Source: Nitrososphaerota archaeon (GTDB lineage Archaea > Thermoproteota > Nitrososphaeria > Nitrososphaerales > Nitrosopumilaceae). From it: a stretch of 5,143 nt of DNA. Position 1 is the first letter of the stretch. Each line of letters starts with the position of its first letter. Shown here in pieces: positions 1 through 5,143 of this stretch. Below the pieces are notes generated by a model, which searched no databases, was not told the DNA's origin, and saw only the letters and a list, made by a program, of their open reading frames with translations. The stretch spans positions 1 to 5,143 of the forward strand of contig JAUXKJ010000039.1 of NCBI GenBank assembly GCA_030624325.1, read 5' to 3'. Made by a program: the position numbers and the translations under genes.

Positions 1-2978
1 ACTTCGCCAAATTTTTCCTGCAAAAATTCAGCAGTATGTTCTGTTGCAAGAATTTTAAATCCAAGATTTTTGAGCGACGCAGTAGTTTGTAAAAGTTTTT
101 CTTTATTTTCTTCGCCTCCGATGGTGATTAACACAGTTCCTTTCTTTGGAAGAGAATAACCTACTGATATCAATCCTTTTGCAAGCGCGTCATAGAAACT
201 AATTCCAAAGCAAGCTGCTTCTCCAGTAGACTGCATTTCAACTCCTAAAATCATATCTGCTCCTTCTAGCTGCATAAAAGAAAATTGTGGAACTTTGATT
301 CCATATTGGGTTACGTTTCTCCATTGATCATCAGGTATTTGTGGAATTTTTTTACCGAGAACTGCAGAAGATGCCAAGCTGATTAAATTGGTTTTAACGA
401 ATTTTGAAACAAATGGCATTGAACGTGATGCCCTGATGTTTAACTCTATAACATAAACTTGGTCTTCATTGATAAGAAATTGTAAGTTAAATGGTCCTTT
501 GATGTTAAATGATTTAGCAATTTTTTTGGTATTATCAGTTATTGTTTCAATAATTTTGTTGTTAAGACGCCAGGGAGGAATGCACATCATAGCATCGCCT
601 GAATGAACTCCTGCACTTTCAATGTGTTCTACGAGTGCACCAATTATGATGGTTTCACCATCTGAAACGCCATCTACATCAACTTCTAAGGAATTTAGCA
701 TGAATTTTGAGATAACAACTGGATGATCAGGAGATAGTGTTGTTGCTTCGTTAACAAATTTTTTTAATTCTCCTTGCGACCACACAACCTTCATTGCAGC
801 TCCGCTTAGGACATAGGATGGCCTCACAATCACTGGATACTCTACTTCAATCGCAAAATTTTTTGCTTCAGTGATGTTCGAAAAAGCCTGCCATTTTGGT
901 TGTTTAATGTGCAACTCATCAAGTACTGCACTGAATTTTGAACGGTTTTCTGCTCTATCTACATCTTCTGCAGAAGTTCCAAGTAGTTGGATTCCGTTTT
1001 TAGCAAGTTTTGGAGTTAGATTGTTTGCAGTTTGACCACCAACCGAAGTCACAATTCCCTTACAATTTTCAAACTCCTGAATATCTAAAATGCGCTCCAG
1101 AGTTAATTCTTCAAAGTAAAGCCTTTGGCAAATATCATAGTCAGTTGATACCGTTTCTGGATTACAATTTACCACAGCAACATTTTTTTCTCCATTTTCT
1201 TGCAAGCCCAAAACCATGTTTACTGTGCCCCAATCAAATTCTACACTACTTCCTATTCGATATGGTCCTGCACCCAAAACCAGAATTCCTTCTTCTTGTG
1301 GTGATATTTCAAAATCGTTTTTGTCTCCACCGTATGTAAGGTATAGATAATTTGTTTTTGCAGGCCATTCAGCAGCTAGCGTATCTATTTGTTTTACTAC
1401 CGGAACAATGCCTTCCTTTTTTCTTATTTGGCGAATTTCCATTTCATCGATACCTGAAGCTCTTCCAATTTGCCTGTCAGAAAACCCGAGTTTTTTAGAT
1501 TCTCGTAAAAGATTAGGTTCAATCTTTGATTCTTTTAATTTCTGTTCTGTATCTACAATGTTTTTTATTTTTTCAATAAACCATGGATCAATTGCGGATA
1601 TTTTGTAAATTTTTTCAACAGAAATTCCTTTCTTAAGTGCAGCAGCAACATAGAATAGAATGTAATCATCTGTAGATAAAAGATGATTTTCGATTTCTTC
1701 TTCATCGTAAGTTTTTCCATTCATACGATTTAGAACTAGTCCGTCATTACCAATATCGAGCATCCTAATTGATTTTTGAAGCGATTCTTCAAACGTTCTT
1801 CCTACTGCCATTACTTCTCCCACAGATTTCATGCTTGGACCAATGTTTCTATTTGCAAGCTCGAATTTGTTAAAGTCCCATCTAGGATGTTTGCATACAA
1901 TATAGTCAAGGGATGGTTCAAAACATGCAGTAGTAACTTTGGTAATTTTGTTAACCAGTTCTGGCAATGAATAACCAATACCTAATTTTGCAGACATGTA
2001 GGCAAGTGGATAACCGGTTGCTTTGCTAGCAAGTGCTGAAGAACGAGAAAGTCTTGGATTTATCTCGATTGCAACATACTTTTCAGATTCAGGATCCAAT
2101 GCAAATTGTATGTTGCATTCACCAACTATACCAACATGTTTTGTGGCCCTTAAAGCAGCTGATCTCAATAAATGATATTCTCGGTTGTTAATTGTCTGAG
2201 AGGGAGCAACTACAATGTTATCTCCAGTATGTACCTTCATTGAAAGAACATTTTCCATGTTACATACAATGATATTATTTCCTGAATAGTCTTGCATTAC
2301 CTCATATTCAATTTGCTTCCAGCTTCCAACATATTCTTCAATCAGTATTTGACCCACCATACTTGCACTAAGTCCTCTACCAACAATTTCATACAACTCG
2401 ATTTCATTAAAGGCAACCCCGCCACCTTTTCCTCCTAGAGTATAAGCAACTCTCACAATCACTGGATAACCTAATTCACTAGCAACTTTTTTTGCGTCTT
2501 CAAATGAATAAACGGTTTTACTTTTGAGCATAGGAACTCCGCATTGCGTCATAGAATCTTTGAAAAGTTGTCTATCCTCAGTCGATTTAATTCCTGAAAT
2601 TTGTGTCCCAAGTACCTTGATTCCATATTTTTGTAGTATTCCTTGCTCGTCAAGTTTTACGCCACAGTTTAGAGCGGTTTGGCCTCCAAACCCAAGCATT
2701 AGTCCATCTGGTCTTTCTTTTTCAATAATTGATGTCACATATTCTGGCGTAACTGGTAAGAGGTAAACTTGGTCTGCAAATCTGGTATCGGTTTGAATTG
2801 TTGCAATGTTTGGATTGATAAGAATACTTTTCAGTCCGTCTTCGCGAATTGCCTTGAGGCATTGGCTTCCGGAGTAGTCAAATTGGCGGTCGTTTTAGCG
2901 ACTTTCGCCGGCTTCTCCGATTTTTAATGCCCCGCTCCCTAACACTAGAATTTTTTTTAGCGACTCATTTTTTGGCAG
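1..2978 (-). CDS. carB: Carbamoyl-phosphate synthase large subunit, 3' end outside window, in-frame stop inside a 21-base insertion
   Basis: Cytoplasmic CarB makes carbamoyl phosphate from bicarbonate, two ATP and the ammonia supplied by CarA, for pyrimidine and arginine synthesis. Numbering from CTG at 2978 and omitting the insertion at 2903-2883, the visible ~985 residues follow E. coli CarB closely. The N-terminus LPKNESLKKILVLGSG lines up with the family's MPK...ILGAG. The first ATP-grasp half has RVAYTLGGKGGG, His243 in VHTGD, and metal ligands Glu298/Asn300 in EINPRLSRS. The linker ends in QIDTLAAEW. The second half begins GPYRIGSSVEFD and has RPSYVLSGAAM and Glu838/Asn840 in ELNIRASRS. 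It ends about 50 residues into the C-terminal MGS-like regulatory domain, so roughly 80 residues are missing. Upstream frame stops leave CTG as the only plausible start, giving a 14-base overlap with carA. An in-frame TAA at 2897-2895 interrupts GEAGE/FDYSG; otherwise the frame is open. Identification is certain; whether the gene is intact depends on that insertion. An annotation lacking the insertion hypothesis might start at GTG 2738 or ATG 2699 and lose the conserved N-terminus. Confidence 0.95.
2883..2903 (-). other. Candidate 21-base mRNA intron in carB (bulge-helix-bulge type)
   Basis: Seen: between the codons GGC GAA (2909-2904) and TTT GAC (2882-2877) lie 21 extra bases that translate as Ser-Arg-stop-Asn-Asp-Arg-Gln. 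CarB proteins run directly from ...GEAGE or GQACE into FDYSG at this point, so the seven codons are not expected, and the TAA would truncate the protein after about 27 residues. Deleting exactly these bases rebuilds GEAGEFDYSGSQ without changing frame. Known: archaeal splicing endonuclease cuts after the second base of paired three-base bulges, and protein-gene introns of this kind exist, for example in crenarchaeal cbf5. Inferred: the element is removed from carB mRNA. The sequence alone fixes the boundary only within two bases, because AA occurs on both sides. The outer helix of a strict motif is absent or very weak, so this would be a relaxed form. Alternatives are a disrupting insertion, stop readthrough or an assembly error. 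Confidence 0.5.
2885..2909 (-). other. Hairpin with three-base bulge spanning the carB insertion
   Basis: Read on the carB strand, GGCG (2909-2906) pairs with CGCC (2888-2885), AAA (2905-2903) is unpaired, GTCG (2902-2899) pairs with CGAC (2892-2889), and the loop is CTAAAA (2898-2893). This gives eight Watson-Crick pairs with one 3-base bulge on the 5' side. Directly after CGCC comes AAT (2884-2882), a candidate 3' bulge or loop. Six of the eight pairs are G-C, notable in an AT-rich genome. Further out, CGGAG (2919-2915) could pair with CTCCG (2873-2869) across a large internal loop, a weak substitute for the outer helix of a strict bulge-helix-bulge motif. The pairing is a direct observation; its role in splicing is inference. 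Confidence 0.75.
2893..2965 (-). repeat. Direct repeat of 11 bases, AGTCGCTAAAA, two copies
   Basis: AGTCGCTAAAA occurs at 2965-2955, where it overlaps the carB codons for Glu-Ser-Leu-Lys-Lys, and again at 2903-2893, where it forms the first half of the 21-base insertion. The copies start 62 bases apart and lie in different frames relative to carB. An exact 11-base match at this distance is unlikely by chance. It suggests the insertion may have formed partly by copying nearby sequence, although coincidence cannot be excluded. Confidence 0.6.
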
Positions 2979-4137
2979 CCTTTTCCTCCTCCATTAGGTT
3001 TTTCAGTTCTTCAAAAACGAATTTACAATCATAAGGTCCAGGTGATGCTTCTGGATGAAATTGAACTGCAATACATTTTTGCTTTTTGTGTTTTATTCCC
3101 TCAACGGTTTTATCATCAGTATTAGAAAACCACAAGTTAAATTCTGAATTTTTTAAAGTGTCTGGACTAATGCAGTAACCATGGTTTTGACTAGTAACAT
3201 ATACTTGATCATTTTCTAAATTAACACAAGGTTTGTTTTGACCTCTATGTCCATACTTTAGTTTGTAAGTATCTGCTCCTCCTGCTAAGCCAAGAATTTG
3301 GGCTCCAAGACATATTCCTAATGTTGGAATATTTTTTTCGATTAAGGATTTTGCCGTCTTAATTGTGTCAGGACAACTCTGGGGATCCCCTGGACCGTTG
3401 CTAACAACAACTCCTTTTGGTTTGTAAGATAGGATTTTTTCAATAGAACTATTCCATGGAACCTTTACAACCTTGTATCCTATTTCTCTAATATTTCGCA
3501 AAATCGCGTTTTTAACTCCAGTATCAATTACAACAACTGTTTTCTTGTCTTTTCCAAAAACTTGTTCATCTTTTGTTGACACTACATCCATGAATTTTTC
3601 TGTGGTATAGTTTTGTGCCGAAGAAAGTTGTTTCTTAACCTTCTCTTCATCAATTTCAGAATCTGACACTACAAGAGCTGCCATCATTACTCCGCTAGTT
3701 CGTAATTTTTTTGTTAATTCCCTTGTGTCAATTCCTGATATTCCAGGTATTTTCTCTTTGTAAAGCCATTCATCTAGAGTCATTGAAAGGTTCCAGTGAC
3801 TGGCAATCATTGAAAGCTCATGGATGACTAGCCCTCTTACCTGAATTTTATCAGATTCGAAATAGCTGGAAATACCATCATCATCTTTTATTGCTGGATC
3901 GGGGACACCATAATTTCCAATTAGAGGATAAGTAAAAGTTAGAATTTGACCACTATAGGAAGGATCTGTCAAAGTTTCAGGATAGCCTACCATTCCTGTA
4001 TTGAAGACTATTTCTCCAAAAACGACAGTAGAATAGCCAAACCCAATCCCATCAAGAACTGTCCCATCATCAAGGATCAGCTTTCCAAATTTTTTTGCGT
4101 ATTGGGCTTTTTTTGTGGTAATTGTGACCCTCGACAA
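2965..4137 (-). CDS. carA: Carbamoyl-phosphate synthase small subunit (glutaminase)
   Basis: CarA (390 residues, close to the usual size) hydrolyses glutamine and channels ammonia to CarB in the cytoplasm. Residues 17-150 form the CarA-specific N-terminal domain, with GEIVFNTGMVGYPETLTDPSY at about 41-61 and GISGIDTRELTKKLR at about 132-146. Residues 200-380 are a class I glutamine amidotransferase: SNGPGDP near 246-252, nucleophile Cys276 in GICLGAQ, YGHRGQN near 295-301, QNHG near 317-320, and His361/Glu363 in QFHPE. The triad is complete. GICLGAQ has Ala where many relatives have His or Asn, not a catalytic position. The start is TTG 4137: an in-frame stop lies at 4158-4156, no ATG or GTG falls between them, and the next in-frame Met is residue 49, inside the conserved domain. 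The nearby ATG at 4142 is out of frame. The 3' end overlaps carB by 14 bases, indicating one transcript. Confidence 0.97.
   Translation of the reverse strand: MSRVTITTKKAQYAKKFGKLILDDGTVLDGIGFGYSTVVFGEIVFNTGMVGYPETLTDPSYSGQILTFTYPLIGNYGVPDPAIKDDDGISSYFESDKIQVRGLVIHELSMIASHWNLSMTLDEWLYKEKIPGISGIDTRELTKKLRTSGVMMAALVVSDSEIDEEKVKKQLSSAQNYTTEKFMDVVSTKDEQVFGKDKKTVVVIDTGVKNAILRNIREIGYKVVKVPWNSSIEKILSYKPKGVVVSNGPGDPQSCPDTIKTAKSLIEKNIPTLGICLGAQILGLAGGADTYKLKYGHRGQNKPCVNLENDQVYVTSQNHGYCISPDTLKNSEFNLWFSNTDDKTVEGIKHKKQKCIAVQFHPEASPGPYDCKFVFEELKNLMEEEKAAKK
2985..2992 (-). promoter_or_regulatory. Shine-Dalgarno sequence for carB inside carA
   Basis: GGAGGAGG lies six bases upstream of CTG 2978 and would pair well with the anti-Shine-Dalgarno end of archaeal 16S rRNA. 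It overlaps the carA codons for the Glu-Glu-Glu run near the CarA C-terminus, so amino-acid composition alone could have produced it. Its spacing fits CTG 2978 and not ATG 2968, which is 16 bases away and opens a frame of only three codons. It supports translation of carB coupled to carA and decides the start codon. Confidence 0.6.
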
Positions 4138-4152
4138 GTCATCTTGATTACT

Positions 4153-4170
4153 GATTTAAGTTTTATGAAA
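4153..4170 (-). promoter_or_regulatory. Candidate TATA-type promoter of carAB
   Basis: The carA-proximal half of the 60-base gap reads TTTCATAAAACTTAAATC on the minus strand. An archaeal TATA-like element, either CATAAAAC or CTTAAATC, centred about 20-28 bases before TTG 4137 would place transcription initiation at or just before the start codon, giving a leaderless or nearly leaderless carA mRNA. No convincing Shine-Dalgarno sequence precedes TTG 4137, which agrees. The call rests on composition and spacing only. No operator or riboswitch-like structure is visible in the gap. Confidence 0.4.
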
Positions 4171-4179
4171 TTTGATCGC

Positions 4180-4197
4180 AAAAAAATATTAAAAAAA
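4180..4197 (-). terminator. Candidate T-tract terminator after cdvC
   Basis: Immediately after the cdvC stop codon the minus strand carries T7 (4197-4191), AATA (4190-4187) and T7 (4186-4180). Archaeal RNA polymerase commonly terminates at T-runs without a stem-loop, so cdvC transcription probably ends here and carAB starts from its own promoter. In an AT-rich genome such tracts also occur by chance, and readthrough into carAB remains possible. Confidence 0.5.
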
Positions 4198-5143
4198 TTA
4201 GAGAGCCTTAAAGTCTTCGCTCCACTTGTAATAGGCTCGAATCATTTCCATTGAAACGCTGGGTTTTCTTTGAGTCTTTATCTGTCTAAAGTCTAACATG
4301 GTTAGATTTTTTGGTTGAGGTAATTCTTGGCCTTGTACAGGTTCTTGATAGGCTGTAGAATCAAAAAGTTCATGAACAGCTTTGAGCTGGGCTGATTGAC
4401 AAACGTCTTTGATATCACTTGCACTGTATCCCTCAAAGAGTTTGGCAAGCTCATGTGTTTTAATTCTCATATCTTTTTTCAAAGGAGCAGTGTATAGATC
4501 AAATAGATTCTGTCTTGCCTCCAGACTTGGAAGAGAAACATAAATCCTTTTTTGGAATCTACGCAAAAATGGCCAGTCAAGACTCCATGGTTTGTTTGTT
4601 GCCCCAATTACATACAACTTTACATCCTTTCCTTTACTGTTTACTCCATCCATTTCAGAAAGAAATTGATTTTTTGTCCTTATTTCTCCACCAATCTCAC
4701 TGCTACGAGAACCTAAAAGCGAATCAACTTCGTCTATAAACAAAATTACTGGTTTTCCTTCCTTTTCATTAAGGGCATGAGCCATTTTGAAAAGCTTTGA
4801 AACATTTTTCTCTGCTTCACCTAACCATTTACTCATCATTGAGGCTGCATCGACGTTTACAAAATAACCGTCTATTTCACTTGCAGTAGCTGCTGCAAGA
4901 ATTGTTTTACCACACCCTGGTGGACCATAAAAAAGCAGTCCTCTAGGCCATCCTAGTGGAAATAAATCAGGTCTTTTGGTAGGATATACAATAGATTCTC
5001 TCAAGGCACTCTTTGCATCTTCTAAACCAATTACCTCCTTCCAGCTAATGTTTGGTTTTTCTTTCAAAATAAGATCTTCAAAATCATCTTGCTTCTTTCT
5101 ATCAAGAGAGGCCCGTTGTTCTGTAGGAGATGCTTGAGGGTCA
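4198..5143 (-). CDS. cdvC: CdvC, Vps4-like AAA ATPase of cell division, 5' end outside window
   Basis: CdvC is the archaeal counterpart of ESCRT Vps4: a ring-forming ATPase that remodels CdvB polymers during cytokinesis. The window encodes the last 314 residues. Counting from the window edge, residues 1-26 are a charged linker ([16 protein letters not shown]), followed by [13 protein letters not shown] entering the AAA domain, Walker A GPPGCGKT (73-80), pore loop SKWLGEAEK with its Trp (about 104-112), Walker [10 protein letters not shown] (133-141), sensor GATN (180-183) and arginine-finger region LRRFQKRI (about 193-200). The C-terminus [18 protein letters not shown] matches the Vps4-type terminal helix. 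The N-terminal MIT domain expected for CdvC would lie beyond the window. The frame is open through TTG 5067 to the edge with plausible linker sequence, so that TTG is not the start. The core looks complete and active. A proteasomal or Cdc48-type AAA protein is less likely because there is a single AAA domain with Vps4-style pore loop and tail. Confidence 0.9.

Follow-up and report, generated by a model that had tools for sequence, protein, structure and literature searches.

A putative bulge-helix-bulge pre-mRNA intron in carB of ammonia-oxidising archaea

Introduction

Archaeal pre-tRNA and pre-rRNA introns of the bulge-helix-bulge (BHB) type present a 4-bp central helix between two 3-nt bulges and are cut after the second base of each bulge. 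The closest described system within a coding sequence is the cbf5 intron of Sulfolobales and Desulfurococcales, the splicing of which is backed by cDNA (PMC2738675). The available parts of that 2009 paper report no confirmed splicing for genes other than cbf5, cite predicted introns (from a rudivirus paper and a Sulfolobus chapter) and include a table in which neither Nitrosopumilus maritimus nor Cenarchaeum symbiosum is listed with a cbf5 intron. In its available text, a 2020 study (PMC7714728) names the cbf5 mRNA intron as the sole additional archaeal BHB intron reported and adds a case of its own, the HVO_1309 leader. Here we analyze a 5,143-nt stretch from a Nitrososphaerota archaeon of the Nitrosopumilaceae (GenBank assembly GCA_030624325.1, contig JAUXKJ010000039.1, positions 1 to 5,143; hereafter, the window), in which the carB gene is interrupted by 21 bases. 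On comparative grounds, this insert is very probably a BHB pre-mRNA intron that is removed by the tRNA-splicing machinery, yielding a spliced mRNA for full-length CarB.

Results

The insert interrupts a conserved CarB motif and the reading frame

The relevant elements of the carB locus are:

2978-2904, minus strand: carB exon 1, ending in ...KIGEAGE at 2904; the start codon is unsure, with CTG at 2978-2976 likely
2903-2883, minus strand: putative 21-nt intron, AGTCGCTAAAACGACCGCCAA, with an in-frame TAA and the same site in relatives
2882-3, minus strand: carB exon 2 (TIGR01369), 960 codons, running off the window end

The CarB frame can be followed on both sides of the insert, which splits the protein motif into ...KIGEAGE and FDYSGSQC.... 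Exon 2 matches TIGR01369 with 1359.7 bits (cutoff 1027), and all 960 codons following the insert in the window are open. Translation through the insert reads GEAGE-SR*NDRQ-FDYSG, and an unspliced mRNA would hence terminate after about 27 residues. Leaving the insert out restores the motif GEAGEFDYSGSQ, which aligns without gaps to IGQAGEFDYSGSQ of the mitochondrial, human-type CPS1 (5dot). The original prediction of an insert with an in-frame stop splitting this motif is thus borne out, and its recurrence at the identical site in relatives (42 of 80, see below) argues against chance. Across 74 distinct introns of 20-40 nt, collected from 151 intron-bearing loci including the window, 49 have lengths that are not a multiple of three, and each of the 25 others contains an in-frame stop.

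The insert is old and widespread

The junction between GEAGE and FDYSG was compared in the best 80 of 180 relatives retrieved in one scan of species genomes (L001-L080). An insert is present in 42 of them (21 nt in 33, 22 nt in eight and 20 nt in one), including the named strain Nitrosotenuis chungbukensis MY2 (L009), and the remaining 38 lack it with the frame exact; this is the comparison of related carB DNA that the original prediction had proposed. A covariance model (R1), built from 31 distinct sequences, was then applied to 400 genomes from the class to which G001 (the L009 genome) belongs, and matched 315. Presence of the intron was judged by match span, with letters read for part of the genomes only: 204 matched genomes (148 + 56) yield spans of 89-109 nt, equivalent to introns of 20-40 nt, and 106 (3 + 24 + 79) yield a span of exactly 69 nt, equivalent to no intron. 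The span of G272 (77 nt, E 0.0098) is ambiguous, and the tally leaves out four matched genomes (G387, G389, G396 and G400). Among 125 located loci at which letters were read, some from first-set genomes, 108 carry the intron and 17 do not; L201 was dropped because the motif script failed to locate its junction. Loci from L081 onward partly derive from the same genomes as L001-L080, and locus counts are therefore not genome counts. Among 300 phylum genomes sampled, R1 matches 94; 30 of these are intron-bearing, and all 30 are shared with the class sample. Spans are 68 or 69 nt in the 44 matched genomes that the class sample does not include, and the 206 unmatched genomes are uninformative. The carB insert is old and widespread in ammonia-oxidising archaea.

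The insert and its flanks present a BHB-like core

The predicted structural core comprises the following elements:

2905-2903, minus strand: 5' bulge AAA, predicted to be cut after its second base (GAA^A)
2884-2882, minus strand: 3' bulge AAT, predicted to be cut after its second base (AA^T)
2909-2906, minus strand: central helix P3, exon strand GGCG (pair counts)
2888-2885, minus strand: central helix P3, intron strand CGCC (pair counts)
2902-2899, minus strand: inner helix P4, 5' strand GTCG (pair counts, compensatory changes)
2892-2889, minus strand: inner helix P4, 3' strand CGAC (pair counts, covariation)

Pairing was evaluated on 110 distinct sequences out of the 151 intron-bearing loci and on 47 out of 55 intronless loci, after dropping repeated sequences and loci without 36 nt on either side. 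The protein sequence fixes the exon positions, which makes pair counts independent of how the sequences are aligned. The form of the central helix is conserved as GGCG/CGYY with a 3-nt bulge on each side; the 5' bulge is AAA, AGA, AAT or AGT, and the 3' bulge AAT, ATT or AGT, in all 110 sequences. P3, paired in 420 of 440 cells, corresponds to the central helix of BHB introns, which is about 4 bp long and enclosed by two 3-nt bulges. The inner helix on the intron side is also present: the first four pairs of P4 form in 435 of 440 cells, versus 1-38% after sliding by one or two positions, and they exchange among U-A, C-G, G-C, A-U and U-G. At locus L157, exon 1 has GGTG and the intron has CACC, so that a change on one side of the exon-intron boundary is compensated on the other. 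An alignment of the core, comprising the window and 47 of 66 listed distinct introns of 20-28 nt (48 sequences), shows 93.7% of cells paired versus 19-54% when slid, and 86 cells changed on both sides versus 32 in shuffled alignments. For the whole stem (31 sequences), the corresponding values are 95.4% paired versus 29-47% slid. The bulges and the helix GGCG/CGCC lie where the cutting rule invoked in the original prediction places them, and cuts at these positions would restore the CarB motif in 80 of 80 first-set loci and in 125 of 126 later loci, intronless loci included.

Searches for a wider identity of the element were negative. With hits considered up to E 1, none of the Rfam covariance models matched window positions 2600-3200, and a known RNA family was accordingly set aside as a candidate over that range. 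A second model (R2), restricted to the core by removing most of the carB context and scoring up to 150 candidates per genome, returned a single strong match (E at most 9e-8) per genome in 24 intron-bearing genomes, many of which hold R2 training sequences, and no strong match in six intronless ones; the model could overlook introns whose central helix differs, so further mRNA introns may exist. Eight weaker matches range from E 0.66 to E 4.8. The single strong site per genome led us to reject a mobile or repeated element, and a plasmid search gave no match.

Exon codons flanking the junction form outer stems and are frozen

Two further stems can be drawn in the exons:

2920-2915, minus strand: outer helix P2, exon 1 strand TCGGAG (pair counts; codons invariant in the intron-bearing set)
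2874-2869, minus strand: outer helix P2, exon 2 strand CTCCGG (codon and pair counts)
2934-2928, minus strand: outer helix P1, exon 1 strand (C)GGGGCA (pair counts; core pairing GGGGCA/TGCCTC)
2861-2855, minus strand: outer helix P1, exon 2 strand TGCCTC(A) (codon and pair counts)

Cells of P2 are paired in 654 of 660 instances (99%) in intron-bearing sequences versus 236 of 282 (84%) in intronless ones, and the five pairs of P1 in 516 of 550 (94%) versus 180 of 235 (77%). Codon usage follows the same division. Among 43 intron-bearing sequences (42 loci and the window), 14 of 604 conserved synonymous columns have zero codon entropy, and nine of these fall within codons -10 to +8 of the junction (hypergeometric P 6e-12, with bounds chosen after looking and with related sequences). 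None of the nine frozen columns is invariant in the 38 intronless genomes, two of them standing at 37 of 38, one with another codon; the intronless set has its own 21 zero-entropy columns out of 656 elsewhere, and most junction-flanking codons drift in intronless relatives. When the exons of 20 chosen representatives were shuffled synonymously 300 times, the native hairpin exceeded the mean stability of the shuffles in all 20, with folding z below -2.3 in ten.

Genomes of relatives encode splicing enzymes

The presence of splicing machinery was assessed in 20 genomes of relatives, 12 intron-bearing and eight intronless. The splicing endonuclease family PF01974 is found in all 20, with two copies in 18, including all 12 intron-bearing genomes; the single-copy genomes, G008 and G009, are both intronless. 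RtcB ligase is detected in 18 of 20 genomes, including ten of the 12 intron-bearing ones. Host endonuclease and ligase genes thus occur among the relatives. According to the available parts of PMC2738675, the cbf5 structures predicted for the species that the study adds are, in all but two cases, unconventional BHBs, which a hetero-oligomeric endonuclease should cut, and the available text of a review (PMC4090602) assigns an alpha2-beta2 enzyme to Thaumarchaeota.

Public protein predictions around the junction

The protein collection was surveyed through listings of the best 120 matches each. Among the matches listed, all 28 proteins with at least 94% identity to the window CarB begin beyond the predicted splice site, 25 of them with MLGFGGQ as first residues, and P0194, which is named as an N. 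chungbukensis protein, begins with MLINPN. Several soil-type predictions (P0124, P0132, P0135, P0136 and P0187) continue across the insert with exon 1 in a different frame. A search for CarB proteins of intron-bearing clades that are joined as a cDNA would be yielded, among the matches listed, P0121 and P0138; because intron loss accounts for both as well as a cDNA origin does, they were not counted as evidence of splicing. P0121, encoded on a 1.17-Mb contig, has a joined, intron-free CarB N-terminus that is 94% identical to an intron-bearing soil-type query; its later part is no longer CarB-like, as after a frameshift, and it possibly represents a recent intron loss.

Gene context and translation start

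The minus-strand order in the window, as given by profile matches and open frames, is a CdvC-like AAA ATPase, carA and carB:

5142-4198, minus strand: CdvC-like AAA ATPase, upstream of carAB and cut by the window end (NF041006, 435.6 bits, under its cutoff of 650)
4137-2965, minus strand: carA, small subunit (TIGR01368, 448 bits), directly upstream of carB and overlapping its start

The likely CTG start of carB at 2978-2976 precedes the carA stop codon, TGA at 2967-2965. Odd starts are common in intron-bearing loci: codon -25 is ATG, TTG or GTG in 36 of 148 and CTG in 64 of 148, and the remaining 48 show TCG, TTT, AGT, GAT and others. A GGAGG-like motif often precedes this codon. Among intronless loci, 42 of 53 have a canonical start codon at codon -25. 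The carA frame, which comes from upstream and is long, continues past codon -25 in 119 of 148 intron-bearing loci versus 13 of 53 intronless ones. These counts refer to loci, some from the same genome, and some of the other starts may sit one or more codons away. The insert and the carB start also share an 11-nt direct repeat, AGTCGCTAAAA, on the minus strand at 2893-2903 and 2955-2965. It was considered as the origin of the insert and rejected: relatives such as L001 have no exact copy, and the repeat is therefore probably a coincidence.

Discussion

Weighing the explanations

A single long hairpin can be drawn from the last part of exon 1 through the insert into the beginning of exon 2. The tRNA-splicing endonuclease would cut this hairpin between the second and third bases of both bulges, RtcB would then join the exons, and the spliced mRNA would encode full-length CarB. 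We infer cutting, joining and the protein product from what the sequences, their conservation, the structure and the machinery genes of relatives display. A BHB intron leads one to expect the same site across the class, exact absence elsewhere, frame-breaking lengths, covariation in the inner helix, bulges fixed at 3 nt, exon-side pairing that is conserved and genes for the splicing enzymes. These expectations held, with the exception of the exon helix adjoining the 3' bulge.

Several observations weigh against this interpretation. Within the core, the last P3 pair is G-A in 20 of 110 distinct sequences, and the number of core pairs with two-sided changes (5) shows no excess over shuffles (4.7). 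In the exons, the pairing rates of intronless genes at P1 and P2 indicate that the coding sequence itself supplies part of the pairing; two inner pairs of P1 each fail in 17 of 110 rows, and the pairs at its two ends fail in 59 and 18. Since most of the outer-stem positions do not vary, the support for these stems is one of synonymous constraint more than covariation. Folding z lies above -1.7 in eight of the 20 representatives. No RtcB match was found in G003 and G005, both intron-bearing and of unstated completeness. Finally, the exon-side helix beside the 3' bulge is missing or weak, its place taken by an interior loop. The original prediction had named the want of a convincing outer helix as its weak point, and this doubt is upheld directly beside the 3' bulge, where a canonical outer exon helix is absent, but not further out, where two conserved stems exist in exon codons. 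The structure should therefore be regarded as a relaxed, rather than a canonical, BHB. Its reading as an intron is supported by the comparative evidence all the same, as the original prediction proposed.

One alternative is programmed translational bypassing, in which the ribosome would hop over the hairpin and the insert would stay in the mRNA. Known bypass elements look alike in being hairpin inserts of variable length with stops. Classic bypassing, however, requires matching take-off and landing codons, and the codon before the insert (GAA or GAG) equals the last insert triplet in none of 151 loci; nor does bypassing predict exon-intron pairing in BHB geometry with exon-exon pairing outside it. 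We consider it very improbable. Marginally less credible still is that the insert is an idle structured element, the missing piece being supplied by a second intact carB or by an exon-1 micro-protein. Two R1 matches do occur in three of the 315 matched genomes (G167, G244 and G364), but the other 312 have a single one, as judged from ten scored candidates per genome and no genome search with the CarB protein, and an idle element is not expected to keep exact splice positions through lengths of 20-40 nt. A conserved gene with an in-frame stop or frameshift would ordinarily suggest decay, or a sequencing or assembly error. The insert recurs in the 204 class genomes and in N. chungbukensis MY2, the 960 codons that follow it in the window are open and the surrounding structure is under constraint, which leaves this explanation a negligible probability and agrees with the case already made in the original prediction against a decayed gene.

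History and possible function

In a quick CarB tree of 204 rows (L094 and L136 being too short to include), the intron trait needs at least 11 changes, seven of them forced by well-supported branches. With the three intronless rows L196-L198 as our choice of outgroup, the simplest account would be that the intron was gained once, early and close to the base of the ammonia-oxidising archaea, and was then lost exactly on repeated occasions. Examples of such losses would be many genomes titled Nitrosopumilus, L033 and L055, whose sisters are intron-bearing, and L195, L199 and L200. Weak support for several inner branches makes the number of losses uncertain. L033 and L055 differ from their close relatives L028 and L061 by the exact absence versus presence of the intron. 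In L033, intron-type codons are kept in exon 1 and changed in exon 2, a possible trace of intron loss.

As for the persistence of the intron, our guess is that it is largely neutral and has been kept since exact loss is rare. A more speculative and rather unlikely proposal is that carB splicing acts as a regulated switch tied to the supply of tRNA-splicing machinery, setting the CarA:CarB ratio and the pyrimidine/arginine flux, with splicing slowed by the unusual, often non-AUG initiation beside the overlapping carA. Because splicing would set the CarA:CarB ratio, selection would under this proposal have kept the exon-codon signal since the group arose.

Comparison with known systems

No report of a carB intron was found among the titles and abstract starts listed, although an earlier mention may exist, and the available parts of PMC12397907, PMC13149111 and PMC11782384 do not name one. 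In the available literature, cbf5 is the only confirmed archaeal coding-sequence intron that we found, and carB would represent a new gene for a known kind of element. If the intron is genuine, archaeal mRNA splicing would not be a curiosity of one thermophile gene: a second coding-sequence intron would be ancient, widespread in an abundant archaeal group and located in a core enzyme. The CarB entries of public protein predictions would be corrected, and the gains and losses would form a natural set for asking how introns arise, vanish and persist.

The carB element shares with archaeal pre-tRNA and pre-rRNA introns the 4-bp central helix and the two 3-nt bulges, and the same enzymes would be expected to act on it; it differs in residing in an mRNA and in replacing the helix by the 3' bulge with an interior loop and distant stems. 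Like the HVO_1309 leader described in the available text of PMC7714728, it would be an mRNA substrate of the archaeal splicing endonuclease, although HVO_1309 is an untranslated leader and carB would harbor a coding-sequence intron. The cbf5 intron is the nearest parallel. As far as the available parts of PMC2738675 indicate, it spans 16-44 bp (Table 1), and the 20-40 nt of carB introns are therefore not unusual in size; it too was gained once and lost in some lineages, and has been misidentified or ignored in annotation. The two differ in that splicing of cbf5 has been seen in cDNA and that of carB is predicted, and in that the carB intron lies in a different gene, one of core metabolism, and in a different archaeal group.
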